Part shown: one piece after another, positions 2,547-64,000 of the stretch | How the letters are laid out: each line of letters begins with the position of its first letter | How positions within the stretch are numbered: the stretch's first letter is position 1 | Origin: an uncultured Chthonomonas sp. | Lineage (GTDB): Bacteria; Armatimonadota; Chthonomonadetes; Chthonomonadales; Chthonomonadaceae | Direction of reading: 5' to 3' | Assembly: GCA_903859705.1 (NCBI GenBank) | Contig: CAIONQ010000030.1 | Span: forward strand, 1 to 64,000 | Length of the DNA: 64,000 nt | The notes under the pieces: generated by a model | Seen by the model: only the letters and a program-made list of their open reading frames with translations | Told to the model about the DNA's origin: nothing | The model's database searches: none | Translations under genes and position numbers: made by a program

Positions 2547-3749
2547 CTACTTGCGTGCGGTGCTTATGCCCTGCTCTGCTGCCCATCGGCTCATATCTCG
2601 CTTCATGATGGCAGCGGCGATCATATCTGGGAAGAGATCCGGAGTGCAGCCGAATACGGGCGATCCAAGTTCTGAAAAGGCTGCTGCGTTGGTATGATCG
2701 GAGCAGGGCGCACCACGGTCATCCAGTGCCAATAGAGTGATCATATTTACTCCGGATCCTACGATAGATCCCACTCTTTCCAGCATCTGGGCGTTGTTCC
2801 CGCCTTCAAACAGGTCGCTAATTAAGATCATAATTGTATCTGTGGGGCGGCGCACAAGTGTTTGTGCGTAGCTTAATGCCCTGTTGATATCGGTGCCTCC
2901 CCCCAGTTGTGTGCCGAACAGCACATCCACCGGATCTTCCAGCTTTTCGGTTAGATCCACAACAGAGGTATCAAACACTACGAGCGATGTTTTGACCGCC
3001 GGGATGGATGCCATTGCAGAAGCGAGAATACCGGCATAAACCACCGAGCCAGCCATGGATCCACTTTGATCCACCACCAGCACGATATCCCGCAGGCTGC
3101 TGCCTTTACGCCCATAGCCAATGGGCCGTTCCGCAATAACGGTGCGGAGTTCTGGCTGGTAGTTTTTGAGATTGGCCCGGATAGTGCGGTTCCAATCGAT
3201 TTCCTGAAGCCGTGGGCGAGATTTGCGTACCGCCCGATTGAGGCTGCCAATTACTGCCTGACGCAGAGGAGCCTGCAAGCGTTTCAGCACTTCCTGTGTT
3301 ACATGCCTAACCACCGCCCGCGCCGTTTCGCGCGTTTTAACCGGGATGGCACTTTTTAGTGAAAGCAGCGTAGCGGCCAGGGCAACATCTGGCTCGGTGG
3401 CAGCGAGCATTTCTGGCTGGAGCAGCATCTGCTTTAGGCCAAGCCTATCCAGCGCATCTTGCTGCATCACATGAACCGTGCTGGAGGGAAAGTAGCTACG
3501 AATATCGCCGAGCCAGCGTGCTACTCCGGGATTGGAACCGGAAAGGCCGCCCTTGCGGTCGCGATCATACAGATCGCCCAGTGCCCTGTCTACGGCGATA
3601 TCACGTGCAGAGAGTTCAATACCGATGCCATCGGCATTTTCCCCACCAAGTATCATGCGCCAGCGTCGCAGGCGCTCTGCATCCGATACCTGGAGGGCCG
3701 CACTCGCCTCTGTTGCACTGGGTGTATCGTGGATTTCTTGTTCCTTCAT
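2547..3749 (-). CDS. VWA domain protein of the MoxR operon (CoxE-like)
   Basis: 400 residues. The N-terminal 200 residues are helical and without a recognised enzyme signature. A von Willebrand A domain follows, with a complete MIDAS: DQSGSM at about 227-232, a central Thr/Asp region (GGGTDINRAL) and LISDLFEGG further on. VWA proteins of this type bind divalent metal and act as partners or adaptors of MoxR-class AAA+ ATPases in assembly or conflict complexes. The start codon overlaps the stop of the DUF5682 gene by four bases, so the two are translationally coupled. No signal peptide is visible, so the protein is probably cytoplasmic. Family assignment is firm; the target of the complex is unknown. 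Confidence 0.9.
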   Translation of the reverse strand: MKEQEIHDTPSATEASAALQVSDAERLRRWRMILGGENADGIGIELSARDIAVDRALGDLYDRDRKGGLSGSNPGVARWLGDIRSYFPSSTVHVMQQDALDRLGLKQMLLQPEMLAATEPDVALAATLLSLKSAIPVKTRETARAVVRHVTQEVLKRLQAPLRQAVIGSLNRAVRKSRPRLQEIDWNRTIRANLKNYQPELRTVIAERPIGYGRKGSSLRDIVLVVDQSGSMAGSVVYAGILASAMASIPAVKTSLVVFDTSVVDLTEKLEDPVDVLFGTQLGGGTDINRALSYAQTLVRRPTDTIMILISDLFEGGNNAQMLERVGSIVGSGVNMITLLALDDRGAPCSDHTNAAAFSELGSPVFGCTPDLFPDMIAAAIMKRDMSRWAAEQGISTARK

Positions 3750-6064
3750 CCAACGGCCTCCTGCGGTTTCAGGCCCAGAATTCTGCGTAGCACTGGCAGT
3801 ACCAGTGCGGCCCGCTCAGGATCGACCCGGACCGTGCTGATGGAGGAAAAAGCCACAGCTCCCGAAGTTTTGGCTCTCTCGCCCATCTGTCTTCGTTCGC
3901 CAGAGGGAAACTCTCCAAAGGTGCGGCGCACCAGGGGCAATACCGCTTCAAATGCATCCAATGAGAGCCCGGATATCCAGCTATCAATTAGCTGCCACAG
4001 GCTATCGTTGTGCAGCAGAAGCAGCCCACTGCCAGATAGGAAACCTTCTGCCCAGGCGCCAGAATCTTGCGGAGCAGCGGCGGGAGACAGCGCGTAACGC
4101 ATGCGCTGCTCGGTATCTGTTGCACTCCAGGCACCCTGATCCAACAGCAGGCGGCAGGCTCTGCCGGTGATAAGCCCATTTACAGAGTGGGTATCTGCCG
4201 TGCGCTGCAGTGCCTCATGCCACATGGTTGTAAGAGTTTCCTCGGAGAGGATCTGAACCGCCTGATCCACGGTTATTATGCGTGTGTACAGTTGTTTGGC
4301 AGCATCAGTATTGATGCCCATGCTCGCTACCTGCAGGCCGATGCACACACGCACCAGCAGCCCTTCCAGAACATCTTTAACAGAATCGGAAGCCTTGGCG
4401 CGCACGCTACCATAACGGATGGTGTTTACCAGCGGTGGGATGGCATCCATAAGCTGCCCGATGTCCGAGGAGACTCCTGCAGCATTGCGCAGACGCTCCA
4501 TAATAACCGGAACAGCCTCTGGCAGGTCTGCCATTTCGATGTGACCGGTGAGCTTAGCCAGGCTGCTAACCGTGCTTGTTTTATCGTTTGCAAGGCCAAT
4601 TGCTCTGGCAATTGCTGCCATTTGCACGGTGTTGCCCCAGATACTGGCCTCTATCACCTGCACGGCGAACTCGGGCCTCCACTCCAGGTTCCATATTTCA
4701 TGAAACGTGCTGTTGCCGGTTCTGGCGCCGGGCTGCAACTGGCCCCAGGGGATATTGAGGAGATCCAGCCGGGAGAGCAGGATGCTTCGGTCCCGATCCG
4801 TGGTTTTGCGCTGGTCCAGATCCAGAACCTTTCGGTTTACCTCGGGAGGCATGCGGAGCCGCTTTTGTTGCTGGGATAGATCCTGCTGGAGCGGAGCCAC
4901 CGGCGTATCATCCGGTGTTTTGCCAAGCGTGGTACCAATTACCAGCTCACGCTGTATCAGTTCTAGCTGGGCGGTTTGCCCGGCACAAAGCACGGCAAGT
5001 GCCGCTTCCAATAGCTCATCTAACCCTGGTGCGGGCCGCTCTCGCATAGCGGTGAGCGTTTCTGCCAGCCGCACGGCCTCTATTACCGAGGCTGTTGGCG
5101 CTTCCAGCTCGTTATCCCGAAGGAGACGTGCACAGTGAGACATCCAGCGCACAGCGATATCGCCCGGGCTTTTCCAGAGTGCGGCGTAGTAACCAGGCGA
5201 GTCTATACCTGCGCCGTAGCCGCTGGCCACGGCCAGTCGATCGTGGGTCCAGGGGGTCCACGCCGCCGCGGTTTTCACTTTAGGCAAGCCCTTAAGCAGG
5301 GCGCTGTCGTCTTTAACCTTTACTTTCTCAATGCCAGTTAGCGCCGGGGCATGCCATGCGCCGCAAATTACGGCGCACCGCTTGAATCCCTCTTTTTCTG
5401 CTGCGCGAATAGTCTGGCGCATCCAGGCTTCTCGCCTTGCCTCACGTTCGGCATCTGCAGCATCTGGCTGTTCGGTATCTGCCTCGGTGTGCTCACGCAG
5501 CAGGCGCATAAGCTCTGTGATGCCATCAAACACAGCCATTGGGTGGTCTTCAGCACCGCCGTCTGCGGCGGTGCGCTGTTCCACCATTAGCTCCCACCAG
5601 CGCTCACAATCCGAATAGCCCGCTGCCTCGGCAATGGCGCGAAGGGGGTCTACACGAACAGAGATAGTGGGTGTAGGAGCATCCTTTTCGGTTTCGACCT
5701 CTGATTCATCGTTTTCGGTCTCCTCAGCAGCTGGCTGTTCAGGCTTTTGGCCCAGTTGGTGCCACTGTGGTAAATCCATAAACCGAATGGGGATGGCAGC
5801 TTCGAGGCCATATCTGATTGCCTGCCACTCTGGCGAGAAGTCTGCAAAGGGGTAGAAAACTGAATCTGAGGGTGCATCTGGCCTGTAGATAAGCAGCGCA
5901 ACCGGCGGCAGCATATCGGCGGAGGCGGCAAGCGGAATCAAGCCATCGGCATCCGGGGGGCCCTCTACAAGGATAACATCCGGACACAGATGCTGGAGGG
6001 CACGCTGCACACTGCGCGCAGAGCCCGGACCATGATGCCTGATACCAAGAACAGAAACTTCCAT
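3746..6064 (-). CDS. DUF5682 family protein, putative TraB/EreA-like hydrolase
   Basis: 772 residues from the ATG at 6064, eight bases after the MoxR stop. An upstream TTG at 6112 would add 16 residues inside moxR and is less likely, because the family motif starts right after MEVSVLG. The N-terminal 300 residues carry GIRHHGPGSA near the start, PDVILVEGPPDA about 25 residues later and VICGAWHAPAL near residue 240. This H-xxx-S, EGP, GxxH pattern resembles the TraB/EreA/ChaN (TIKI) hydrolase superfamily; that link is my inference from motifs. An acidic, Glu-rich linker follows the first domain, and the C-terminal 450 residues are a helical region with no motif I recognise. No signal peptide. 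Partner genes: MoxR upstream, VWA downstream with a four-base overlap. Confidence 0.85.
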   Translation of the reverse strand: MEVSVLGIRHHGPGSARSVQRALQHLCPDVILVEGPPDADGLIPLAASADMLPPVALLIYRPDAPSDSVFYPFADFSPEWQAIRYGLEAAIPIRFMDLPQWHQLGQKPEQPAAEETENDESEVETEKDAPTPTISVRVDPLRAIAEAAGYSDCERWWELMVEQRTAADGGAEDHPMAVFDGITELMRLLREHTEADTEQPDAADAEREARREAWMRQTIRAAEKEGFKRCAVICGAWHAPALTGIEKVKVKDDSALLKGLPKVKTAAAWTPWTHDRLAVASGYGAGIDSPGYYAALWKSPGDIAVRWMSHCARLLRDNELEAPTASVIEAVRLAETLTAMRERPAPGLDELLEAALAVLCAGQTAQLELIQRELVIGTTLGKTPDDTPVAPLQQDLSQQQKRLRMPPEVNRKVLDLDQRKTTDRDRSILLSRLDLLNIPWGQLQPGARTGNSTFHEIWNLEWRPEFAVQVIEASIWGNTVQMAAIARAIGLANDKTSTVSSLAKLTGHIEMADLPEAVPVIMERLRNAAGVSSDIGQLMDAIPPLVNTIRYGSVRAKASDSVKDVLEGLLVRVCIGLQVASMGINTDAAKQLYTRIITVDQAVQILSEETLTTMWHEALQRTADTHSVNGLITGRACRLLLDQGAWSATDTEQRMRYALSPAAAPQDSGAWAEGFLSGSGLLLLHNDSLWQLIDSWISGLSLDAFEAVLPLVRRTFGEFPSGERRQMGERAKTSGAVAFSSISTVRVDPERAALVLPVLRRILGLKPQEAVG

Positions 6065-6072
6065 GGTTGGCG

Positions 6073-7152
6073 TTACAGGTTCTCGCGGCAGGCGCGGTAC
6101 AGATCTCGCCAACCGTCGCGCTCTTTAACAACGGTTTCCAGGTACTCCTGAAAAACTACTTTGTCCTGAACGGGATCTTTAATGATGGCGCCCACCAATC
6201 CGGAGGCGATATCTGCGGCGGTTATGGCGCCAGATCCGAAGTGAACGGCGAGCGCGGCGCCGTTGTTTACAACCGAGATAGCTTCGGCGGTGCTCATGGT
6301 GCCACCGGGCACTTTGATGCGTGTTTTGCCATCTACAGTTATTCCCGATCTCAGCTCGCGGAAAACCATGACAATGCGGCGGATCTCTTCTATAGAGGCG
6401 GCACTGGCGGGCAGGCGCAGGGCACGGCCCATTTCTCGCGAGCGCTGCTCCACAATCCGCACCTCCTCTTCGAAGGTTGCCGGAAGCGGCAGCACCACGG
6501 TATTGAAGCGCCGTTTGAGCGCCCCCGAGAGCTCGTTTACGCCCCGATCTCTATCATTTGCGGTGGCGATGATGTTGAACCCGCTGATGGCCTGAACTTC
6601 TGAGTTGAGCTCTGGAATGGGCAGTGTTTTTTCCGAAAGGATAGTGATGAGCGAATCCTGCACCTCAGATGGTATGCGCGTGAGCTCCTCCACCCTGCCG
6701 ATTTTGCCTTCGGCCATGGCCTTCATGATGGGGCCGGGCACCATTGCCTTGTCGCTTGGGCCTTCGGCGAGCAGGCGCGCGTAGTTCCAACCATAGCGCA
6801 CAGCCTCTTCGCTAACGCCAGCTGTTCCCTGAACCAGAAGCGTGGAATCGCCGGAGATTGCGGCAGCAAGGTGCTCTGCAACCCAGGTTTTGGCGGTGCC
6901 TGGCACTCCCAGCAACAGGAGGGCACGATCTGTTGCGAGGGTGGCAACGGCAATCTCCATCAACCTACGAGAGCCGATGTACTTCGGTACTATTTCGGTG
7001 CCATCATCCAGTTTACCGCCCAGCAAATAGGTGGTTACAGCACGTGGAGATAGCTTCCAGTTTGGTGGACGCTCTGCGGTATCACAGGCAGCGAGGGCCG
7101 ATAGTTCACTGGCAAACTGGCTTTCCGCATGCTCTCTAAGTACGGAACTCAT
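6073..7152 (-). CDS. MoxR-family AAA+ ATPase
   Basis: 359 residues. It has a Walker A motif GVPGTAKT at 82-89, a Walker B-like GRVEELTRIPSEVQD, sensor 1 ATANDRD and an arginine-finger region GALKRRFNTVVLPLP. These are the hallmarks of MoxR/RavA-type AAA+ proteins, which form hexameric rings that remodel or activate partner proteins, commonly with a VWA protein encoded nearby, as here. Upstream AAAGGAG supports the ATG at 7152. The start overlaps the DUF5691 stop by four bases, and the DUF5682 start follows eight bases after the stop. The protein is predicted cytoplasmic. ATPase identity is certain; the substrate is not known. Confidence 0.95.
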   Translation of the reverse strand: MSSVLREHAESQFASELSALAACDTAERPPNWKLSPRAVTTYLLGGKLDDGTEIVPKYIGSRRLMEIAVATLATDRALLLLGVPGTAKTWVAEHLAAAISGDSTLLVQGTAGVSEEAVRYGWNYARLLAEGPSDKAMVPGPIMKAMAEGKIGRVEELTRIPSEVQDSLITILSEKTLPIPELNSEVQAISGFNIIATANDRDRGVNELSGALKRRFNTVVLPLPATFEEEVRIVEQRSREMGRALRLPASAASIEEIRRIVMVFRELRSGITVDGKTRIKVPGGTMSTAEAISVVNNGAALAVHFGSGAITAADIASGLVGAIIKDPVQDKVVFQEYLETVVKERDGWRDLYRACRENL

Positions 7153-8753
7153 CTCTGCACTGTCTCCTTTCGATCTGCGAATGCGGTGGCCATTTCGGAT
7201 CGGAACTGCATTACGGCAGTGAACTCATCCAGCGATTTTTGCCAGAAGTACTGCCAATCCTGCGATGCGTGGCTGGCGGTTAACAGGCCAGAAAACGCAT
7301 CGGAATACTGAGGTTGGGCTCGGCGTGCCATAAGGCTTACAAGCTCGCGACACTGGTAGGCGCGGACGCTTGCGGGCGGAAGGTCTCGAATAGCCGTGCT
7401 GAGCAAGCTTAACACCGAGATTGTGAACCGTTGCGACCATGCTGCAGTGCACTTGCCTGCTTCGTATGCCAGTGCAACGCCGGCGGCAAGGGCCCCGGTT
7501 GCCATGGTTTGGATAGTGAGCTCTTCCAGCTCAGAAATGGTAAGAATGCTGGATAGCATGAGGGATTCGATACCGCCCACTGCCTTCAACTGCTGGTCTC
7601 CACTCAGGGCAAGGCGCAGCAGTTCGGTAACCAGCTGCCTATCCGCAAAGCGTACAGCACTCTCACGCAGGCCTGCAATTATCTCATCTTTGAACTCTGT
7701 TTTCCAGGCAAGATGAATGAGCTTATCCGGGCTAATGCGCAGGTGAGCGCATAACGCAGCAGAGCGTGTATGGGCAATCAACTGGCGCAACCAGTAGGAA
7801 CGATCCCCCATCCCACTATTCTGGGGAGCTTTCGGCAGCACCCCATCTCTTAGCATGGCCTCATCGCATGCAACCGGCAGGCTAACATCCAGCCTGTCTG
7901 CAATCAGCAGCGTTTTCTTCATGGCAAACAGCGGCAGGGTTCTATCCTGAAATCTGCGGCTCATGCCCGAACCAGGGATCTGCATCAGCAGTTTGGCACC
8001 GATGTGCCGAACCTCTGCACGCCTATCTGTAAGAGTCGCCTCGAGAAGAGGCTCATCGGCTGTGCTCAGGCCGGTGCTCAAACAATCCAGAAAGGCGGCC
8101 TTTTCTTCCCACTTTTCCTTATCCCACACTCCCATTACCATGGTTAGGCCCTGCGCCGCATTTTGTGAGCGGATTGCCGTGAGAGCCTGTAAGCGCTCTT
8201 CTTTGCCGCCAGTTTCGAAGAGGTAAACAAGCTCCTGATTGGCTGCGGGAATATCCACAGCTGCAAGTGCCCATTTCCAGTTGGGAGCCTGAGTAACCAT
8301 GGCAAGCCAGCGTGCCCTGCTGCCGGCTACCGCCAAAACACGGGTACGTAGGCTCTTATCCGAATGCGCCGCATCCAGTAGACCGGGCAGGTACTCTGGC
8401 AGCGGAGCCACACCATGAAGTTCTGCGAGCTCTAACCACTCTGGCAGAAGCTCTCTTCGATTGCTGTTATCAGCAAGGATAGTGCCAAGGCAGGAGATGG
8501 CATGGGTGTTTGCGGGCGGAGCTTCCCTCCCCTCGAACGGTGGAATGGCCGAGGAAGCTGATCCAAGCACGGCACCCGCGGCAGACGTAAGTGCTGCTAT
8601 CCCGGCGGCACGCAGCAGCGAAGTTTCTCGGGAAGCTGCCCAATCCAGCTCCGAATATGGGCCGACTTCTCCGGCAAATGCAGACTGTGCGGGGAGTGGC
8701 CCACCGGGCACTGCTGCCGCCTTTGCCAGAAGATGAAGTGGGGATTGCATCAC
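7149..8753 (-). CDS. DUF5691 family protein, helical solenoid
   Basis: 534 residues, almost entirely helical, with many Leu/Ala-rich repeats of about 30-40 residues (for example EWLELAELHGVAPLPEYLPGLLDAAHSDKSLRTRVLAVAGSR split by short loops), suggesting a HEAT-like scaffold. Size and position between a SWIM protein and a MoxR ATPase match DUF5691, a family found in this same neighbourhood in cyanobacteria, actinobacteria and others. I see no catalytic motif. The start overlaps the SWIM gene stop by four bases and the stop overlaps the MoxR start by four bases, so stoichiometric co-translation with both is likely. It may be the structural scaffold of the complex (inference). Confidence 0.85.
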   Translation of the reverse strand: MMQSPLHLLAKAAAVPGGPLPAQSAFAGEVGPYSELDWAASRETSLLRAAGIAALTSAAGAVLGSASSAIPPFEGREAPPANTHAISCLGTILADNSNRRELLPEWLELAELHGVAPLPEYLPGLLDAAHSDKSLRTRVLAVAGSRARWLAMVTQAPNWKWALAAVDIPAANQELVYLFETGGKEERLQALTAIRSQNAAQGLTMVMGVWDKEKWEEKAAFLDCLSTGLSTADEPLLEATLTDRRAEVRHIGAKLLMQIPGSGMSRRFQDRTLPLFAMKKTLLIADRLDVSLPVACDEAMLRDGVLPKAPQNSGMGDRSYWLRQLIAHTRSAALCAHLRISPDKLIHLAWKTEFKDEIIAGLRESAVRFADRQLVTELLRLALSGDQQLKAVGGIESLMLSSILTISELEELTIQTMATGALAAGVALAYEAGKCTAAWSQRFTISVLSLLSTAIRDLPPASVRAYQCRELVSLMARRAQPQYSDAFSGLLTASHASQDWQYFWQKSLDEFTAVMQFRSEMATAFADRKETVQR

Positions 8754-10102
8754 ACCTCCTCCTGGCTGCAGAGCAGAATACAGCGTGTGCCTGCCCAGGC
8801 GGCAAGCGGCTTAAAGACGTATCCATCCCATTCCCCGCTGATCTGCACCGGGTGCCCGCCAGAGAATGCAAGCAAGCGGCGAGCGTATGCGTCCCAGATA
8901 TCTAGCGGGATCGCATTGCCATCTGCAGAGTTCAGTAAAATACGGTTGTTGTGCCATGCCGGGGTAACGCCGTTGATGGTTACAGGGTACGTTTGAAGCC
9001 ATGGATCTTGAGCAAGGGCTTCGGCATACCGGGTTTGCCAGTTGTTTGAATCATTTTGGGCGACAATCTCGGCGGCAGTAATGGAAACTGGAACTGGCTC
9101 TATGCTTTTCACCAACGCACGCAGCGCGAGCGAGCCCGGGTAGAAGCACAGTTCGCCGCCAATGCAGCCACCGGGCGGTATGCCTGGCTCCAGGCCCTGA
9201 TGGGCGGGCGCAAAGCTCAGCCACAGTGCCGTGGAGCCCGTATTGGTGCCCATGAGCCATGTTCTGCGTACGATGCCCGGCTCTTCGTAGCTAAGACGGG
9301 TTCCAATGCAGGCCCACGTATCTCTAACAGTGGGACCAGAAAGAACCTCTTCGCGCTTAACGGGCCAACCGATGTGGCCCCGCACCGTTTCTCGAAGATC
9401 AGGCGTCAGAGATTCCAAATTCCGATACGCATCAATCAGCAGCTGGAGACTGCCTAATTCGCTCAGCAGGCGCTGGACCCATGCCATACCATCCAGACCC
9501 TTTGTTGCTTCACCAAGCTGGCGGATACGACGCGCCAGGCCTGGAGCCTGGGCATCTACCAGGCGGGCAGAGCGGTTAACCCAGGTTTGTGTGGACATGT
9601 TTTTGCCTGAGGCCAACCCCTGCCGAACCTGATCCTGCAACCACAGATCCAGTTCGTCAATGCCTGCTGCAACCTTCTTTTCCCTGTCATCGGCGCGCTT
9701 CAGCTGTTGAGCGGCCGCTTTCACGGGGTCTGCCGGTGTTTTTGCCTCGGCCTTTTCTGCCTTTTCGGATTGCCGTTCATCGCGCTTCTGTATCCACTCC
9801 ACCACACGCGGTGGTGGTGCGGCGATACCGAATGCGTTGGGCTGAGCGGCGAATATTAGCAGCAGTGCAAGCCCGTGCTTGCATGGAAACTTACGGCTGG
9901 GGCAGGTACATTTGAAGGCTGGCTCGGTGAGGTCAATTTGTACGGCGTAGGGTTTGGAGCCGCTACCAGGGCAATCTCCCCACAGGCAGCGTTCATCGCG
10001 CTCCAGGCCGTGCCAACGGGAAGCCGAAGCAAGGGATCGGCCAGCACTGGCCGAACTGCTATCCGGAGCAAGAGCAAGTACCTGTTCTGCTGTCCAGCTC
10101 AT
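8750..10102 (-). CDS. SWIM zinc-finger protein
   Basis: 450 residues. A SWIM motif sits near the N-terminus: CTC at 65-67 followed by CKH at 74-76 (CxC-x6-CxH), which binds one zinc and usually mediates nucleic-acid or protein contacts. A charged, Lys/Glu/Ala-rich helical segment follows at about 130-170, then a C-terminal half with Trp-rich stretches and no recognised enzyme motif. It is the first gene of the tightly overlapped five-gene MoxR cluster, starting at an ATG at 10102, 118 bases after the S1C protease stop. Its stop overlaps the DUF5691 start. Role in the cluster, perhaps substrate or nucleic-acid recognition, is inference. Confidence 0.9.
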   Translation of the reverse strand: MSWTAEQVLALAPDSSSASAGRSLASASRWHGLERDERCLWGDCPGSGSKPYAVQIDLTEPAFKCTCPSRKFPCKHGLALLLIFAAQPNAFGIAAPPPRVVEWIQKRDERQSEKAEKAEAKTPADPVKAAAQQLKRADDREKKVAAGIDELDLWLQDQVRQGLASGKNMSTQTWVNRSARLVDAQAPGLARRIRQLGEATKGLDGMAWVQRLLSELGSLQLLIDAYRNLESLTPDLRETVRGHIGWPVKREEVLSGPTVRDTWACIGTRLSYEEPGIVRRTWLMGTNTGSTALWLSFAPAHQGLEPGIPPGGCIGGELCFYPGSLALRALVKSIEPVPVSITAAEIVAQNDSNNWQTRYAEALAQDPWLQTYPVTINGVTPAWHNNRILLNSADGNAIPLDIWDAYARRLLAFSGGHPVQISGEWDGYVFKPLAAWAGTRCILLCSQEEV

Positions 10103-55671: not shown

Positions 55672-56733
55672 TCAATCTATTGCAACAAAACTCTGGTCGA
55701 CATAATCAGCGCTTTTTACACGGCGGTCAAGCTTCCGCTCATAACTCTTATCGCTATGGCGGGCAATCTCTAAGACACGAAGTTCGCCACTATCACGGGC
55801 AGCTTCGAAAAACACGCGTTCATCTCGATGCCCCCCCGGGTAGATTAAACAATCAGAGGGCGGCTCTTGACGTGCAGCAGTCATCCAGAGAGATGGCACC
55901 CTGAGCTTTTTAAATACACTATCAAACCGCCCTCTGGTATTTGAGTCTAATGCAAGGTAGTCCTTATGCGCCGATGGAGAGAGTTTGATTGATGCTGATC
56001 CTGTTTCAAGAATATCCTGATACCGTTCAAAAATGGCATAACCAATGGGTGATACTGTATAGTTACCATCTTCCTGCTGGAGCACCAGTGTCGCCATCTT
56101 TGCTGGCATCCCTTTTAGGCGGTTCTCCGTTTCTCTTGCTTCCCGGCTATCTGCACCAAACAGCCATTCACAGAACTCTTCATGCTCCGCAAGCAAGTGA
56201 TAGTCCCAACCGATGGGCGACGTTGGCATCTCTATAATTTCGCTAAATTGCTCATGTATGTAATAAACGGGCACGTCAAACAGTTGCCCAACCATAGTAG
56301 CGTATGCGGTTTCCGCCTTAAATCCACCTGTAGCACAAATGATAGGCTGCCGCTGTACTTTTTTCGCTTCCATGATCCGTTCGATAATCAGACTAACCAA
56401 CGACTTGAGTCCCCTGGTTTTGAACTCCTCTGCACTCGACACAATGCCATAGATTTCACACATGGTCACACTATAGTCTGCGTAATTTAAATGTAACGCC
56501 GCTGCACACAACTTACCTTCCGGTGTGCAGGAGTGTAACAGGTCTATCGTGGCTGATTTGTCAAGCAACCTGGAAAGAGAATTTGTTTCCGCACTTGCCT
56601 CAGTCACCGGGGTCTGCTTGAGGTAGCGCGCGAGAACATCAAGCTCTGGCAACGGCCCACCAGGATGCAGGCTGTTTGCTTTACGATAGTTGGAAAGCAC
56701 CGATGTGCCAACCGTTGTGATCACTGTTTTCAT
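55672..56733 (-). CDS. CARF - winged helix - RelE-like CRISPR effector (Cami1-type)
   Basis: 353 residues from ATG 56733 (AGAGG seven bases upstream). Residues 1-175 are a CARF domain of the APE2256/Csm6-related kind: ITTVGTSVLSN at 5-15 and CATGGFKAETAYA at 133-145, the ligand-binding loops. A winged-helix-like segment follows at about 190-240 (MPAKMATLVLQ, YTVSPIGYAIFERY). Residues 247-340 align by eye with RelE toxins: IKLSPSAHKDYLALDSNTRGR helices, then ERVFFEAARDSGELRVLEIARHSDKSYERK split over the strand-strand-helix end, with Arg325 and Tyr331 where RelE has catalytic Arg81 and Tyr87. No HEPN motif. Cami1 proteins are cOA-activated ribosome-dependent mRNA interferases. It follows cmr6 by 54 bases. 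Confidence 0.8.
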   Translation of the reverse strand: MKTVITTVGTSVLSNYRKANSLHPGGPLPELDVLARYLKQTPVTEASAETNSLSRLLDKSATIDLLHSCTPEGKLCAAALHLNYADYSVTMCEIYGIVSSAEEFKTRGLKSLVSLIIERIMEAKKVQRQPIICATGGFKAETAYATMVGQLFDVPVYYIHEQFSEIIEMPTSPIGWDYHLLAEHEEFCEWLFGADSREARETENRLKGMPAKMATLVLQQEDGNYTVSPIGYAIFERYQDILETGSASIKLSPSAHKDYLALDSNTRGRFDSVFKKLRVPSLWMTAARQEPPSDCLIYPGGHRDERVFFEAARDSGELRVLEIARHSDKSYERKLDRRVKSADYVDQSFVAID

Positions 56734-56787
56734 TGTTTTGCCTCTCGTAAACACCTTAATAACGGTTCGCAGCGGTAAATGGAAATC

Positions 56788-57783
56788 CTACCGTGCAGTC
56801 ACCCTCACAACCGTAAAAGTATTGCCGTCGCGCATACCCTGGACATCCACGGCGGTTGCAGCTTTATCGACTTTGCCCCGAAGACTATCGTCAAGCGAGG
56901 CGTACAGAGCCCTGGCGATGCTGCCATCCATTGTTGCAAGCCGTTGGCGATTAGTAACATAACTGAAGTCGATTTTATCTGCCCCGCGTCGCTTAATAAA
57001 GTACACATTTTCTACTGTTTCCAGCGGCAATGGTGCTTTCTCTATCCTCTCAAACGTGCCGTATCCTGCATTAGTTTTACCACCGGCTCCCAGGGTGCGC
57101 AGGGACCACAGGGTCAATTCCCTTACAAAATCCTGCCAGCCTTCTGGTGTGCAAAGAGTGAACAGAAATACGGCATCTGGTCTGACCGATAAGAATTGCA
57201 CAGGATTGGGTTCATCGTAATCTGTAGGATATTTGCGCATGCCGCCAGCACCTGTATAATAGTCTGCATGGTGCACTGTTAGCACATCCCGTTTAAGAGG
57301 GTATTTTATGCTTTCAGGGTCAAACCATGCATCCCAGAAGATGCATCCACCACTCAGCTCAGTATCACCGAACAACAAAACAAACTGATCCTGAGTTAAT
57401 CGTTGTTCTTTGACCAGCAGACTAGCCCCGGCCCTCACTACACCTTTAAGTGAGGAGCCTGGCAAGTACGGCACACCATACGTGTGATGCAAAGTAATTC
57501 CCACTCCCGTGGGTGAAGCAGCCCCTGCTCCGGCCAGCAGCGGGGCAGAGAGCCGGGCACCAAAGCGTAGAGCACCTGGCATGTGCAATTGCTTCCAACG
57601 GTGAAATGCAGTGTGATACGCATCCGAGGTATGTATCGCAGTGGCAGCCTTCAACAGGTAAGCCTGGTCTGCTTTGCTTCCGCCGCACTCTTGTGTTCGC
57701 AGGAAGCGCGTTAATAACAGGCCAGTGTGCTGCGCTTCTTCAATTGGCATGCATTGAAGGTGGTTTCGTATTGCAGATGTCAT
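56788..57783 (-). CDS. cmr6: Type III-B RAMP protein Cmr6
   Basis: 331 residues, at the long end for Cmr6. RAMP landmarks: GITLHHTYGVPYLPGSSLKGVVR, split as GVPYLPGSSLKGVVRAGA, FLFGDTE-like LLFGDTELSGG and the Gly-rich loop GAGGKTNAGYGTF. It caps the head of the Cmr backbone next to Cmr1. The C-terminal 75 residues after the Gly loop are longer than usual and of unknown role. ATG 57783 overlaps the cmr5 stop by four bases. Confidence 0.93.
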   Translation of the reverse strand: MTSAIRNHLQCMPIEEAQHTGLLLTRFLRTQECGGSKADQAYLLKAATAIHTSDAYHTAFHRWKQLHMPGALRFGARLSAPLLAGAGAASPTGVGITLHHTYGVPYLPGSSLKGVVRAGASLLVKEQRLTQDQFVLLFGDTELSGGCIFWDAWFDPESIKYPLKRDVLTVHHADYYTGAGGMRKYPTDYDEPNPVQFLSVRPDAVFLFTLCTPEGWQDFVRELTLWSLRTLGAGGKTNAGYGTFERIEKAPLPLETVENVYFIKRRGADKIDFSYVTNRQRLATMDGSIARALYASLDDSLRGKVDKAATAVDVQGMRDGNTFTVVRVTAR

Positions 57784-58199
57784 GTATTACCGTCCTCCCC
57801 AGATGCATCGCTTACTCCAAGCACCGATTCTCCAAAGCGTTTGAAATAGATCCAGCAGGATAACACTGCCTTAGTATCCAGCATGTAACCAACCATTTCT
57901 TTTCCCTGGATCGCCTCAAGAACCTCGGAAGGCGATGCGCTCTGGAGATTCAGCACCCGCCCAACATGGTTCACTAACAGGGTATGCGCTTTCTCTCTGC
58001 CCGATTTGTTCGCGCCCCCTTTTGCAACACTAAATGCCAGGCTCTGGCAAAGCCCACAGGTGCGCACCATAACCGGGAACTTGTGGCAAAGACCACCGTA
58101 TACTTGAGCGATTTGAGCGTCCGCTTCGGCGGCCGCCTTTACGTCTTTTACACAGTTGTATGCCAGTTCCATTTCCAACTGGGCTTTTGTTCTTCTCAT
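57780..58199 (-). CDS. cmr5: Type III-B small subunit Cmr5
   Basis: 139 residues, all-helical, typical size. It stacks along the inner belly of the Cmr complex and contacts target RNA. It contains GGLCHKFPVMVRTCGLCQSL and the basic patch KGGANKSGREKA. Start overlaps the cmr4 stop, end overlaps the cmr6 start, each by four bases. Confidence 0.92.
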   Translation of the reverse strand: MRRTKAQLEMELAYNCVKDVKAAAEADAQIAQVYGGLCHKFPVMVRTCGLCQSLAFSVAKGGANKSGREKAHTLLVNHVGRVLNLQSASPSEVLEAIQGKEMVGYMLDTKAVLSCWIYFKRFGESVLGVSDASGEDGNT

Positions 58200-59041
58200 T
58201 CTGCTATCACCAATCTGCAGAGACCTCTGCCTATCGATGCTTTGCCCCCAACTTGAATTAGTGATCCTGCATTGGACAAATGCTTGAGCGCAAGATCAAA
58301 TGCGGCTCTGTGTGTTGCGGAGTGCTGATCTGTAGAAACAATAGCGCCGCAGAAAATAGCTTCTGCTGGCACAGCCTCTTCATACCAGAGAGCGGTTGTG
58401 GTTTTTGTGTCTGGGTTGAGTGAATTTCGGGCGCTCACCTCGGTTGCGGTTTCGCACAGAAAGCTGAAAACTGTATTGCTTACTACTACAAAGCGGCTGC
58501 AGAACGACTCTTGTTCTGCCTCAGTGGTAAAGATCAGGGATGCAAGAAGTGAGGCTACTGCAGTGGCGGTTTCATCCGCGTTGCTGTCAATATCCAGGTC
58601 TTCCAGGCAAACTTTGCCCGTTTTTGCGATCTTACTGTTGCGAGTTACCAGCGCAATCTCGTCTGCAGTATCTGGCACACATAGGTTGGCAGTTGCCATT
58701 CCTACACTGAGGGCAGACCTATCGCGCTGAAGTCGTTCCAGGGCATATGGGCAGGTAACCAGTGCATACGTACCGTAGAAACTACGTACTGGCAGCAACA
58801 GAAGCTTTTGATCCGAAAAGCTAACGGATCCCGCAGCATCGACGCTACCAAAAATAGCGGCCTCATCTGCTTTATCCGCTTGAGACCGCAGCACGCCTTT
58901 TAAGCTACTTGCGGGGATGAACGGCCAGCCAGTGGCCTTTTCCCTGGCTACGGGCAGATCAATAACTGCAGGCGTTTGGCCAGTGCCAGAGTGCACAGGC
59001 GTTAACGCGTGAAGAAATATGGATTTGAATCCAACACTCAT
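58196..59041 (-). CDS. cmr4: Type III-B backbone RNase Cmr4
   Basis: 281 residues. LTPVHSGTGQTPAVIDLPVARE carries the catalytic Asp at residue 28 (IDLPVARE), followed by PFIPASSLKGVLR. Cmr4 copies form the backbone filament and cut the target RNA every six bases. The Gly-rich end GGKASIGRGL is present. The ATG at 59041 has only a weak ribosome site, and lies 32 bases after the cmr3 stop. Confidence 0.96.
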   Translation of the reverse strand: MSVGFKSIFLHALTPVHSGTGQTPAVIDLPVAREKATGWPFIPASSLKGVLRSQADKADEAAIFGSVDAAGSVSFSDQKLLLLPVRSFYGTYALVTCPYALERLQRDRSALSVGMATANLCVPDTADEIALVTRNSKIAKTGKVCLEDLDIDSNADETATAVASLLASLIFTTEAEQESFCSRFVVVSNTVFSFLCETATEVSARNSLNPDTKTTTALWYEEAVPAEAIFCGAIVSTDQHSATHRAAFDLALKHLSNAGSLIQVGGKASIGRGLCRLVIAE

Positions 59042-59073
59042 TACGGCTCACATCCTTTCTGTTTCCTGGCCAT

Positions 59074-60204
59074 TTAGGCCCATAAGCCCCACAGCGCAAG
59101 GCCGCATCCATCGCGGCGATCTTGCACATCATCACTTACCGGTTGTAACCATGCGCCAGTTGTCAGATCCGCTCCATCTCCTTCGAGCAATTCAAAGAAG
59201 TACACAGCCCCGGCGGGGGCCATCCAGCGCACGGGCTTAGAGCGTTTCGCCTTCAAGTCCCAACCGCTAATAGCGAGTTTGCGCGGTACCGCTGCCGCAA
59301 CAAGCTTCAACTGCACGCCATCTACTCCCGGCACAAATCCTGAATTGTCGTCCCCCAGCCAGCCTGGCTTCCATCCGTTAGTGAACACCGCAGGTGTTGC
59401 CAGCACCATACGGATATATTTCGAACCCTTCAGTGCACGCACGATCTCGTCCGGTGTTTTCCAGAAGCTGTTTTCTAAATCAGCCTGGTGTTCAATCACA
59501 CCTACCCGGCGCTCTCCTCCCATGAGGGCAGGGCCGCGCAGATCTGCCGAAGCAGCATGCTTAACGCGTACTGCAAAGTAATAAGTGTGGAACTTCACCG
59601 CATCACTGTTGCGCGTTGCTTCGCTTTCAAACACAAGAGAGCTCGTAGAAAACAGGCGGGAGTCTGCTGCTTTACCGGTTACCGGATCGATGCTTACGTG
59701 TATGCGAATCTCCTGAGGCAGGGGAGGTATGCGCTCTGGAAGCGTAGATTTGTCACCACTGGCATTAAGGAGCCAGGTAAACATGTCCGTCTGTTTCCAG
59801 AACGCGAAATCCGTTGCCGGTTTTGCATCTGCAGTAACTGAAAGTGGCAATAAGCCAGCTGGAAGGTTGCACCACGTGCCAGGTTTTGCGGTTGGGCGCA
59901 GTGGCATAACCGTTCCGCCATCTCTCGGCACTACAGCATCGGCTGGTGCGGCAAATATGGGAGTGCCATCCCGTAGAAGTATCGGCCCGTGCACTTCTGT
60001 TTTCATAGCCAGATCCGGCCCGTCGCCAGCCCAATCCCAGCCAGAAACTGAGCCGAGGCGTGAACGTATCAATCCGGCAATGGTTGGCGGTGCGGGTACA
60101 GGTAGAGTGCGGGCTCCGCGCTGCAATGGATCTGTACCAAATGCCCGACCATCTCGAAATAGGAGTGGGTCTAAACCGCGTAGTTGGTAATGCTGTTCCT
60201 TCAT
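59074..60204 (-). CDS. cmr3: Type III-B protein Cmr3
   Basis: 376 residues. Begins QLRGLDPLLFRDGRAFG, the Cmr3 signature, followed by PPTIAGLIRSRLG and a RAMP-like second half with MGGERRVGVIEHQ. It binds the 5' tag of the crRNA and anchors Cmr2. ATG 60204 overlaps the cmr2 stop by four bases. Confidence 0.95.
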   Translation of the reverse strand: MKEQHYQLRGLDPLLFRDGRAFGTDPLQRGARTLPVPAPPTIAGLIRSRLGSVSGWDWAGDGPDLAMKTEVHGPILLRDGTPIFAAPADAVVPRDGGTVMPLRPTAKPGTWCNLPAGLLPLSVTADAKPATDFAFWKQTDMFTWLLNASGDKSTLPERIPPLPQEIRIHVSIDPVTGKAADSRLFSTSSLVFESEATRNSDAVKFHTYYFAVRVKHAASADLRGPALMGGERRVGVIEHQADLENSFWKTPDEIVRALKGSKYIRMVLATPAVFTNGWKPGWLGDDNSGFVPGVDGVQLKLVAAAVPRKLAISGWDLKAKRSKPVRWMAPAGAVYFFELLEGDGADLTTGAWLQPVSDDVQDRRDGCGLALWGLWA

Positions 60205-61943
60205 ACTGTCGCCTCCGTTCCGGCATAACCAGCAGCAAGGAAGCGGGCAATAATCATTGCGTCCGCTATCTTGCGTAAACTCTCAGGTGCACAGCCTTCA
60301 CCGTTACGGTGCGCAGTAAAATCTGAAAGCAAAAGGCGTGCGGCGTCTATTTCGGAACCACTGTGTTTTTGATTGTCTTTATTGCATTTCCGATCAAACA
60401 CTCGTAATGCCTCAATTTGTACTGCGGCATCCAATGGATCAGAAGGGTTGGTTGTGGCAGAATCGTTCATGCCAGTGAAATCCCGCGCCATCGCTGCCAG
60501 TTCGTATGGCAACCCGGTGGATAGCCCGCCGCCGCTGGGATGAAAAGCACCCACAAGGGTTTTGAATATTTCTGTAGGTTTTTTACCTTCCGGTGCGTTG
60601 CGCCACGTATAGGTAACGCTCACAGGGGCACCTCCCCGCGTGTGGAGTGCCACCGTAAGCGCGTCTTTTTGAGGCATTTTCTTGGAATGGTGCTCAGCAA
60701 CGCGTGCGTGCTGAATGGAGTGCTGCAGGCTTTCGGAGTGATGTACTATTGCGAGCCCTATTGAAAGCCCCGGGGAAGTTCCATTTGCCACCGATAAAAG
60801 TGCGGCAATGTACTCAGCATGTAGCTGTTCAGCAAAACACAATGCCGTTCTAACAGGAAGAAGGGCAAGCACATCATCACCACCAGCATAAACGCAGGTT
60901 CCTCGGGACGCCTTCGCAAGTTCTCTTGCTTTGTTGGAGAACTGAGACAGTGCAGTCGATACCTTCCGGTGTTCACCTGCTGTTGTTGCCTTTGAAAGTA
61001 GTTCTCCCATGCTGTCACCATCGGCAGTAAGAATTGCATAGTAGGTCGGCAGGCCGGTGTCTACAGTAACGCCTATGGAGTTTCGAGCGCTGTTCTGCAC
61101 AGTTTTAAGCCGTGCAACGATATCCGGATCCGGCGATAGTTGCTGTATTGCGGTCTCTGCCGGACCGGGATATATCAGGTCGACTCCTGAGATTTCCGGT
61201 TGGCAAAGTGCCCCGATACGGTTAAGCTCCCGCATTATCTCTGGATCGATGTTAGAAGGTGCTGACGCCAGTGCAATATCTGTTGTACTTGGCCATGACT
61301 CCCCATCGTTACCCTTTCGTCCGAGTTGCCGCTTGAGCAGGCTAACGGCATCCAGCGGTTCTGCTCTGGCAACGTTAAGACGCTGCAGTTCAAGTTCGGG
61401 CAAGTTTGGCGGAATTATGGAATCGCGCGAAGGGTCCAGTTGGCTTCTTACTCTGCCAGGTTCGCTAAGAACGGTATCAAAAGCCCGTAAGGCTTTGCAG
61501 CCGGCAAGCGCGCGTTCGGTCTGCGTGCGCGCTTCCGTATATGTTGCTGCTTCGGCAGATGCTGCATAAAATTCAATAAAGGTACCTATCTGAACTTCTG
61601 CCAGCGCAATATTTGCTGCGCCTCTCAGCCTGCCGCAGTGGTCACTCCACAACTGTTGCAGCCGAGATACTGCTGCCTGCCTGGCTGCTGATGCAGCCAC
61701 TGCAGGCTCTACCTGTGGCATAAGTTCCAGTAAGATCTTGTTCGGCCCTGGCTCATAGGCATTTGCAGGAAATATGAGGTTGCCATACTGTGCGGCAGCA
61801 ACGGCTGCGCTTCCAGTAAGTTCAACAAGCAGGTTAGACCCTGCAAGGAGATCACCTGTTTTTCGTGCAGCAGCAATGAATTCTTGAACTGGCCCTATAG
61901 AGATTGCCAGCAGACGTACAGGCGTACCAGATGGCGTGCTCAT
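60201..61943 (-). CDS. cmr2: Cas10/Cmr2 lacking the HD nuclease domain
   Basis: 580 residues, against roughly 850-900 in HD-containing Cmr2. The protein starts directly at the first palm region (ISIGPVQEFIAAARKTGDLLAGS), so the N-terminal HD DNase of about 200 residues is absent. No HD-type HD pair is seen elsewhere. The second palm has YYAILTADGDSMGELL (301-316) and the cyclase motif CVYAGGDDVLALLP with GGDD at 354-357, intact. It should therefore make cyclic oligoadenylates on target binding but not cut DNA. Overlaps of four bases with both cmr1 (61940-61943) and cmr3. Confidence 0.95.
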   Translation of the reverse strand: MSTPSGTPVRLLAISIGPVQEFIAAARKTGDLLAGSNLLVELTGSAAVAAAQYGNLIFPANAYEPGPNKILLELMPQVEPAVAASAARQAAVSRLQQLWSDHCGRLRGAANIALAEVQIGTFIEFYAASAEAATYTEARTQTERALAGCKALRAFDTVLSEPGRVRSQLDPSRDSIIPPNLPELELQRLNVARAEPLDAVSLLKRQLGRKGNDGESWPSTTDIALASAPSNIDPEIMRELNRIGALCQPEISGVDLIYPGPAETAIQQLSPDPDIVARLKTVQNSARNSIGVTVDTGLPTYYAILTADGDSMGELLSKATTAGEHRKVSTALSQFSNKARELAKASRGTCVYAGGDDVLALLPVRTALCFAEQLHAEYIAALLSVANGTSPGLSIGLAIVHHSESLQHSIQHARVAEHHSKKMPQKDALTVALHTRGGAPVSVTYTWRNAPEGKKPTEIFKTLVGAFHPSGGGLSTGLPYELAAMARDFTGMNDSATTNPSDPLDAAVQIEALRVFDRKCNKDNQKHSGSEIDAARLLLSDFTAHRNGEGCAPESLRKIADAMIIARFLAAGYAGTEATV

Positions 61944-63172
61944 ATAGCGATAACCTCTCTTTCACAGTCAAACTCCTGTTCAAAGGATTTCACTACTGCA
62001 TCCAGCGGATTGATTGCTCGTAGGTTATTTAGAACCTGCTCTTCGCCTGGGCCCGGTACATGGAGGTCCACAATCGTGCCGTTGATCTTCACTCGCTCTG
62101 GCGTGCCGCTGCTAAAGAGTACAAGGCATAGTGGGCGAATGGTGCCATCGGCAAATGCGGCTGGTTTTAGAATAACCGGAGACGCAAACCGGGTACCTGC
62201 TTCTGCATGTACTTCGCCATCAAAGCCACCTCCAGCGAACTTTTGGTATATAATTGGCAGCCCCAGTGCTGGCTTGGATAGCGAGATGTAGCTATCCGAA
62301 GACTGGAAAACGCCAAGCACATCGTAATCTGACCAATAGGAGCCGTTCATCGGAATGTATTCTTCTCCACCTATGTGCCCCTTGCGGAACCTCGCCCAGA
62401 ACTTACCAAGACTGTTCCAAGTGTGTATTGGATCTGCGGCATTACCGGCGAGAAACACCGCATTATTCAGCGTAGCAAACCCCGGCACATCACCGACAGC
62501 GGTGCGGGGCCGAAAAGGTTCAAAAAGATCTTGAAACCATTGTGTGCGGGAACCTGGCTCTGCCGGAATGCGCCAATTGTTAGCGTCCGCATCTACCGCC
62601 TGCAACGCCCCAAGGGCACGCCGCGTTCTGGCACCTACTCCACCAAATGCAATCCAGGCTCTCAATGCAGCGCACACTTCGTTGTAATTGTCCTTAGTGC
62701 AGCGTATGTGAAGCACAAAGGAAACTCCCTGCCGGCCCGGTTTTTCTTTAATTCCCAGTTTCTGCTGCGCTTGAAACGGGAACTGGAAATAGGCACCCAT
62801 AGGGCCGTTAGCAGCATTACCTCTATCTATGCCACAATTTACACCCGCAGACTTTAACTCAGTCCGTACACTCACCTTGCCGCCAGAAGCCGTACTACCC
62901 CAGAGCTCAGATTCTCTCTCGAACAGTTTCTGTACATCGGTGCAGTGAGGCCCACACAGCGTGCGCCACCAAAATCGGAGATTACCTCGGATGCTGGAGG
63001 CCCGTATCGGGGTTATTTCATCCACTTCGCCGGCATCTGGCCCGCCCCCATACATTGGTGTAATCACATCAAGTTGTATGGAGAGATCCACGTAATCTGA
63101 GAGTGTTGGTTCGTTCCATATTGGCGGTGGAACCGCACGTATCTCGTGCAGTTTTTGCATTGACCTGGGCAT
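61940..63172 (-). CDS. cmr1: Type III-B protein Cmr1
   Basis: 410 residues. The motif DEITPIRASSIRGNLRFWWRTL near residue 50-70 is diagnostic (here given in part: ITPIRASSIRGNLRFWWR). RAMP Gly-rich loop GGVGARTRRALGAL is present mid-protein. Cmr1 sits at the head of the complex with Cmr6. Starts 29 bases after the cas6 stop. Confidence 0.95.
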   Translation of the reverse strand: MPRSMQKLHEIRAVPPPIWNEPTLSDYVDLSIQLDVITPMYGGGPDAGEVDEITPIRASSIRGNLRFWWRTLCGPHCTDVQKLFERESELWGSTASGGKVSVRTELKSAGVNCGIDRGNAANGPMGAYFQFPFQAQQKLGIKEKPGRQGVSFVLHIRCTKDNYNEVCAALRAWIAFGGVGARTRRALGALQAVDADANNWRIPAEPGSRTQWFQDLFEPFRPRTAVGDVPGFATLNNAVFLAGNAADPIHTWNSLGKFWARFRKGHIGGEEYIPMNGSYWSDYDVLGVFQSSDSYISLSKPALGLPIIYQKFAGGGFDGEVHAEAGTRFASPVILKPAAFADGTIRPLCLVLFSSGTPERVKINGTIVDLHVPGPGEEQVLNNLRAINPLDAVVKSFEQEFDCEREVIAI

Positions 63173-63201: not shown

Positions 63202-64000
63202 TCAGAGAACGCTGGCCGTGCGCAGGGCTGAAGGCGCACGCTCGAATTGGTTGCTTCCAGCATATCTGGAGGACTGCCCAGATTGGCCCGCTGCCTCTAC
63301 CATGCCAAGGCCCATGCTATTGCGCGATCCGAGGCCGCACTCCCAGGCGAGCTTGAGCATCTCAGGCGAGGTGGTGAGGATGAACGGTGCAAGCGCCCCC
63401 ACAAGGCGGATACCTTTGTAATTGATAAGTCGAGTTCCACCCCGCGATCTGGGATTTTGAAGATATGACTGTGAGAAACGCATTTCGAATTGACTATCCT
63501 GTGGCTCATTACCATACATCACGCGGTGCTTCCAGAGGAGATTTGCACGCACGGTTTGTGAGAATTCAGGGTCGTCTGGGCGAAGATATTCTGTAGTACC
63601 ATCCGGGCGGCCGCGGGCTGCTACAATGGGGCTGAGGCAGCGATAGGGAGAATTATCAGCGGAGGGTGGCGAGGGATCACAGCGGATATGACGTATGATG
63701 AGTTCCGCTGAGTGTATATTCAGGTGACTACCCGGCTGCAGAACGTTGCAGGCAAGCAACTCTTCCAATACACCTGAGGGTGATGCCAGATCCCAATTGA
63801 TAGGGCCGGATTCATACCGAATGCCATTTGCGGTAATGGTTCTGTTTTCGGCAGGGGCACGCAGGCCGCCGAAGCAGAACAGCTTGGAAGTTTTAACGCT
63901 ATCTTCGCGTTCTGCATACCCCCTATCGTGGAGGAAGCTGGCGTATGCACTATTTGCGCGACCAACGGCAGCGTATATACAGGCCTGCAACGCGTGATGA
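63202..64000 (-). CDS. cas6: Cas6 crRNA endoribonuclease, 5' end outside window
   Basis: The frame is open to the right edge; the TTG at 63990 is an internal Leu, and the codons before it read HHA, giving HHALQACIYAAVGRANSAYASFLHDRGY, written here in part as HALQACIYAAVG then FLHDRGY. This matches the Cas6 N-terminus, so only some 10-20 residues are missing. The C-terminal G-loop ECGLGSRNSMGLGMVE is typical. Cas6 cuts the pre-crRNA in each repeat. The CRISPR array and any adaptation genes must lie to the right of the window. Confidence 0.92.
   Translation of the reverse strand, partial: HHALQACIYAAVGRANSAYASFLHDRGYAEREDSVKTSKLFCFGGLRAPAENRTITANGIRYESGPINWDLASPSGVLEELLACNVLQPGSHLNIHSAELIIRHIRCDPSPPSADNSPYRCLSPIVAARGRPDGTTEYLRPDDPEFSQTVRANLLWKHRVMYGNEPQDSQFEMRFSQSYLQNPRSRGGTRLINYKGIRLVGALAPFILTTSPEMLKLAWECGLGSRNSMGLGMVEAAGQSGQSSRYAGSNQFERAPSALRTASVL

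Follow-up and report, generated by a model that had tools for sequence, protein, structure and literature searches.

Cami1 of Allochromatium vinosum (pALVIN01 ALVIN_RS15585; PDB entries 8phb and 8phj) is built from a CARF domain, a winged helix and a RelE domain. The original Cami1 paper is that of Mogila et al. (2023, Science). Literature accounts give Cami1 as a binder of cyclic tetra-adenylate (cA4) (PMC11229360) and credit it with ring-nuclease activity (PMC12409355); a survey of type III loci counts it in 135 of 1113, together with another effector in about 50% of cases (Hoikkala et al. 2024, PMC11229360). Here we describe a related locus in an uncultured Chthonomonas sp., found in a stretch of 64,000 nucleotides (the window) that forms bases 1–64000 of the 64,689-base contig CAIONQ010000030.1 (C30) in a genome of 6.24 Mb and 179 contigs. 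The minus strand of this window holds an operon that is, with high confidence, a type III-B module made of Cmr1 to Cmr6, with a cyclase-type Cmr2 devoid of an HD domain and a Cami1-like CARF-RelE effector predicted to cut mRNA.

The operon order, established by Pfam, TIGRFAM and PADLOC scans, is cas6-cmr1-cmr2-cmr3-cmr4-cmr5-cmr6-CARF/RelE. The type III-B gene set is complete, all six cmr genes, including that of Cas10/Cmr2, standing in one row. The range considered in the first-pass annotation of the window (55672–61943) omits cmr1 and cas6, both of which are operon members.

55672–56733, minus strand: CARF-winged helix-RelE effector, Cami1-like, 353 residues (PADLOC 2e-95; AlphaFold2 model with Cami1 as top structural match)
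56788–57783, minus strand: cmr6 (TIGR01898, 1.8e-32)
57780–58199, minus strand: cmr5 (PF09701, 1.7e-23)
58196–59041, minus strand: cmr4, the backbone (TIGR02580, 3.3e-63), with Asp28 at what we take to be the position of the target-RNA-cutting residue
59074–60204, minus strand: cmr3 (PF09700, 1.5e-68)
60201–61943, minus strand: cmr2/cas10, 580 residues, no HD domain, GGDD at residue 354 (Pfam and TIGRFAM scans, motif reading)
61940–63172, minus strand: cmr1 (TIGR01894, 2.6e-16)
63202–64000, minus strand, running past the window: cas6 (PF01881, 2.1e-22), with its start, located by eye, at contig position 64056

In Cmr2, Pfam places Cmr2_N from residue 11 onwards and palm2 over residues 301–430; the palm1 motif GPVQ stands at residue 17 and the cyclase motif GGDD falls in palm2. 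The Pfam scan listed no HD family in Cmr2 at E ≤ 1 and no HD domain among the operon proteins, and the dipeptide ‘HD’ is absent from the first 160 residues of Cmr2. The HD domain has truly been lost and the cyclase motif retained, as had been read from the sequence at the outset, when Cmr2 was described as beginning at its palm domain. It can hardly be that Cmr2 is truncated or mis-read, with its HD domain encoded at another place in the locus: C30 does end 689 bases beyond the window, which leaves the locus unclosed on that side, but cmr2 shares 4 nucleotides with the end of cmr1 (61940–61943) and therefore has no room for a hidden upstream HD segment, Cas10 palm2 is matched only once in a genome whose completeness is rated 95.66%, and relatives, A. 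vinosum included, share the same Cmr2 start. On account of the single palm2 match, the presence of another type III complex in this genome was likewise rejected. GGDD is not universal in type III-B, and the HD domain is optional in Cas10 rather than a membership criterion; HD is given for 437 of 1113 type III loci (39%) in the survey cited above (Hoikkala et al. 2024, PMC11229360).

The effector gene is best read from the ATG at 56733 (353 residues), a start favoured by the aligned relatives; an alternative GTG at 56754 would lengthen the product by 7 residues (360 in total). PADLOC names the product CARF7--CARF_RelE (E = 2e-95, over 8–358 of the 360-residue reading), and its N-terminal CARF domain is of the APE2256/CARF7 kind (PF09651, 1.4e-26). 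Because Pfam listed no RelE/ParE family, assignment of the C-terminal part called for comparison of folds and profiles, both fed by an alignment of 33 proteins that includes the effector itself and excludes the homologue of locus L081. The AlphaFold2 model obtained in this way has a mean predicted local distance difference test score of 93.2 and a predicted TM (template modelling) score of 0.89. Foldseek ranked four Cami1 chains first to fourth (best E 5.7e-20), followed by Sulfolobus ring nucleases, with E. coli RelE (4fxe) in 23rd place (E 1.2e-3; target-length TM 0.74). In VIA-align, whose rows by the tool's own remark test chiefly residues 1–239, the Cami1 chain 8phb_A matched the full length of the effector (Z 23.7 over 2–353, 339 aligned residues) with a root-mean-square deviation of 11.3, a value that we attribute to the placement of the domains; residues 244–329 were matched by two chains from RelBE entries of Mycobacterium (Z 10.2 and 10.0), and the CARF part matched Sis0811 and SSO1393 chains (Z 19.8–21.0). 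Cami1 was also the best hit of the profile search, with an alignment that runs on through its RelE domain (E 2.2e-32). The three-part architecture of the last gene, whose C-terminal stretch had first been aligned by eye with RelE toxins, is thereby borne out.

Several observations weigh against so close a kinship with Cami1 and RelE. Identity to Cami1 is just 21–22% in the structural alignment; the best PADLOC models differ (PDLC01937 for the window effector, PDLC01939 for Cami1); the profile match to E. coli RelE chains is weak (E 0.06, next after ring-nuclease chains); and for the window effector no RelE/ParE family of Pfam was listed up to E 5, although filtering removes most matches weaker than about 0.1. 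Among the 33 aligned proteins a single one matched ParE-like_toxin, at 0.11. The conservation of individual residues speaks for a working nuclease. R306 and Y331 are present in 33/33 aligned proteins and H326 in 32/33, that of the window included; in the PDB sequences, the Cami1 position that aligns with H326 is occupied by H in the apo form (8phb) and by A in the chain bound to the ribosome (8phj), a difference that we read as a disarmed active site, which would make the H326 position an active-site residue. It is accordingly very improbable that the nuclease has been lost and that the protein serves only as a messenger-sensing winged-helix regulator or as a ring nuclease. Its winged-helix segment and the ring-nuclease residues kept in the CARF pocket would suit such a role; R306, H326 and Y331 are nevertheless conserved, and the model shows an entire RelE fold.

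The CARF site itself may destroy its own messenger, and the protein is to this extent a putative ring nuclease, since S11 (in all 32 aligned rows that have a letter there) and K139 (33/33) sit at Sis0811 S12 and K169, which are the mutated residues named in the titles of PDB entries 7pq6 and 7pqa. As a side observation, a sister group of 31 loci (L084–L114, of which 23 make up its alignment) has a Cami1-like CARF domain and winged helix (Z 23.4 over 2–239) followed by a C-terminal part that lies outside the coverage of the effector's own alignment. Invariant residues in this group are K257, H265, H266, T329 and A331, and the one member scanned (L091) is CARF_DUF2103 in PADLOC. VIA-align gave it no row past residue 245, which is not proof of a new fold; Foldseek alignments of this group to Cami1 span 376–389 columns.

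By analogy with Cami1, a plausible course of events can be drawn for the type III-B module. CRISPR RNAs would be cut by Cas6 from the divergent array, and Cmr1 to Cmr6 loaded with them would bind matching invader RNA. The GGDD palm of the HD-less Cmr2 would then synthesize a cyclic oligoadenylate, cA4 being the most likely one. Once bound by the CARF dimer of the effector, this messenger would free the RelE domain, whose predicted cutting of A-site mRNA on the ribosome would halt growth, and the halt would last until the CARF site has degraded the messenger. The choice of cA4, the ribosome dependence, the arrest and its self-limitation are all borrowed from Cami1.

The first-pass annotation regarded the CARF-RelE protein as the sole CARF protein and translation arrest as the defence on which the module depends. 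On C30 it is indeed the only CARF protein found over 64.7 kb, and PF09651 has a single match in the genome, namely the CARF-RelE gene, while PF09455 (Csx1 HEPN), PF09623 and TIGR02221 have none; a genome search for the SAVED domain also gave no match, but its control was equally silent, so that this result is uninformative. PF23400 (CARF_Card1), however, gave a match above cut-off at 5234–5620 of another contig, C149. The underlying 312-residue open reading frame (4694–5632, minus strand, TTG start) is recognized by PADLOC as CARF4--CARF_PDDEXK (1.9e-29). Its putative nuclease part shows, by eye, an FD...EFK motif and has a weak NERD match (E 0.0034, below cut-off). It shares the CARF_Card1 domain with the CARF-PD-(D/E)xK nucleases Can2 and Card1, although the sequence match to solved Can2 is non-significant (E 0.15). 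The Can2/Card1 family is reported to cut DNA and RNA on cA4 (PMC9704534, PMC11229360).

The two contigs may be neighbours. The CRISPR array of C30 begins at 64459, outside the window, runs away from cas6 and comprises four repeats before the contig ends. C149 opens inside an array with 11 full repeats identical to these four, and the CARF-PD-(D/E)xK gene lies about 3.9 kb past the end of that array. As the repeat is identical, the direction the same and both contigs are broken inside the array, C30 and C149 would be the two ends of one array, and the C149 protein probably responds to the same messenger as CARF-RelE. The C149 protein does not accompany the effector as a rule, since it was found in only one of the 31 genomes of the class, that of the window. 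The array stretches of C149 and C30 gave no megablast match in phage records, a search that did not extend to the array of a third contig, C74, to plasmids or to viral contigs.

This C74 contig (1299–10106) carries a type I-B operon with cas6, cas5, cas3, cas8b, cas7, cas4, cas1 and, by eye, a cas2-like frame. Its Cas3 has a Pfam Cas3_HD domain above cut-off, and its array has 8 repeats, each (8/8) differing by one base from the III-B repeat. The claim that the module gives up DNA cleavage is thus correct for the Cas10 of the Cmr complex and probably wrong for the cell: the III-B complex has lost DNA cutting through Cas10, but a DNA-targeting system and probably a CARF nuclease are still available to the cell. 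It is therefore unlikely that the module acts through RelE-driven translation arrest alone, lacking both a further CARF effector and DNA cleavage. In favour of that reading are the eight scanned operon proteins, among which there is no other CARF, HEPN or HD gene, the genome searches with PF09651, PF09455, PF09623 and TIGR02221, and the occurrence of the C149 protein in a single class genome together with the indirect nature of its link to C30; on the other side stand the C149 protein itself, the identical repeat of its contig and the HD-bearing Cas3 of C74. Sole dependence on RelE arrest is not upheld. Since a second CARF gene and a Cas3 HD domain lie on other contigs with the same or nearly the same repeat, neither ‘sole effector’ nor ‘no DNA cleavage’ is readable from a single contig. 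Tentatively, one cA4 burst could drive both translation arrest, through CARF-RelE, and nicking of nucleic acids, through the CARF-PD-(D/E)xK protein at the far end of the array, and so compensate in trans for the loss of HD in Cas10, with the type I-B Cas3 system able to use the same spacers for DNA targeting.

Around the operon, the CARF-RelE gene is followed downstream by a Proton_antipo_M gene and a DabA gene (Pfam), which we take to be a DabAB inorganic-carbon pair. Farther away in the window, inspection by eye points to a row of five genes (2547–10102, minus strand), presumably a VWA / DUF5682 / MoxR AAA / DUF5691 / SWIM cassette; such cassettes have reportedly been proposed by others as a conflict system. 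Effector homologues are matched at E ≤ 1e-5 in 15 of the 31 class genomes, and through most of the effector's length in 5, its own genome counted. Among 72,556 plasmid records 4 have an effector match, one of them covering at least 80% of the effector; phage records have none.

How common is the pairing of an HD-less Cmr2 with CARF-RelE? The sample comprised the 33 of 80 loci matched through most of the effector (L051–L083) and the plasmid locus L132, or 34 loci in all; the remaining 47, truncated or matched chiefly in the CARF part, were left out. In eleven of the 34 the fetched stretch contains no Cas10, several of these loci being on short contigs, and the other 23 hold 24 Cas10 open reading frames, four of which were set aside, three starting at a contig edge (L054, L061 and L062) and one breaking off after GGDD (L081). 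The complete frames divide into 11 without and 9 with HD (20 in total). When type III-B is assigned by the GPVQ motif, a rule of our own, 10 of 12 are HD-less. Nine of these ten loci are from Thermaceae, so that they are not independent events. With CARF models of the Csx2, NE0113 and CARF7 kinds only, four of the ten (L059, L075, L078 and L082) show no second CARF gene, and six have a Csx2-type gene. The pairing, at first deemed uncommon, is therefore not so: it recurs in this clade, and it is also that of the founding A. vinosum Cami1 locus.

Two side observations were made in the sample. Three CARF-RelE genes (L063, L070 and L076) have no cas gene, by the models used, for about 10 kb in either direction, yet Cas10 is present in other parts of their genomes, as in the complete genome AP024673.1 of L076, with Cas10 at 1,205,322, a weaker match at 1,641,763 and the effector near 2,180,600. 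Locus L060 has, at 7042–9636, an HD-less Cas10 that seems to belong to another type III system and one more CARF-like gene (TIGR02710, E 0.00069, below cut-off), opposite in strand to its CARF-RelE gene.

Comparison with individual loci places the window among known arrangements and adds a Cami1-like effector from Armatimonadota (Chthonomonadia relatives). The A. vinosum III-B operon also has an HD-less Cmr2 (605 residues, Cmr2_N from residue 5) and six adjacent cmr genes; its effector, about 22% identical to that of the window, is encoded first, beside cmr1, whereas the window effector is encoded last, and an NE0113-type CARF gene (annotated csm6) lies about 6.7 kb past cmr6. The Thermaceae loci of Thermus altitudinis (L078), Meiothermus rufus (L082) and Thermus caliditerrae (L075) are III-B operons with an HD-less Cmr2, CARF-RelE directly after cmr6, and CARF-RelE as the sole CARF gene found by the models used in the fetched stretch. 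Unlike that of the window, the gene row of the first two also includes type I-C genes and cas4-cas1-cas2, and the third has cas4-cas1-cas2 upstream. Another uncultured Chthonomonas (L059) displays cmr1 to cmr6 followed by CARF-RelE, with an HD-less Cmr2 of 559 residues and no other CARF gene found in the fetched stretch; its effector is 43% identical to that of the window, and a Cas6 gene comes after the effector. The operon of the window is an ordinary type III-B defence operon, and its HD-less Cas10 together with a Cami1 relative is a pairing already known.

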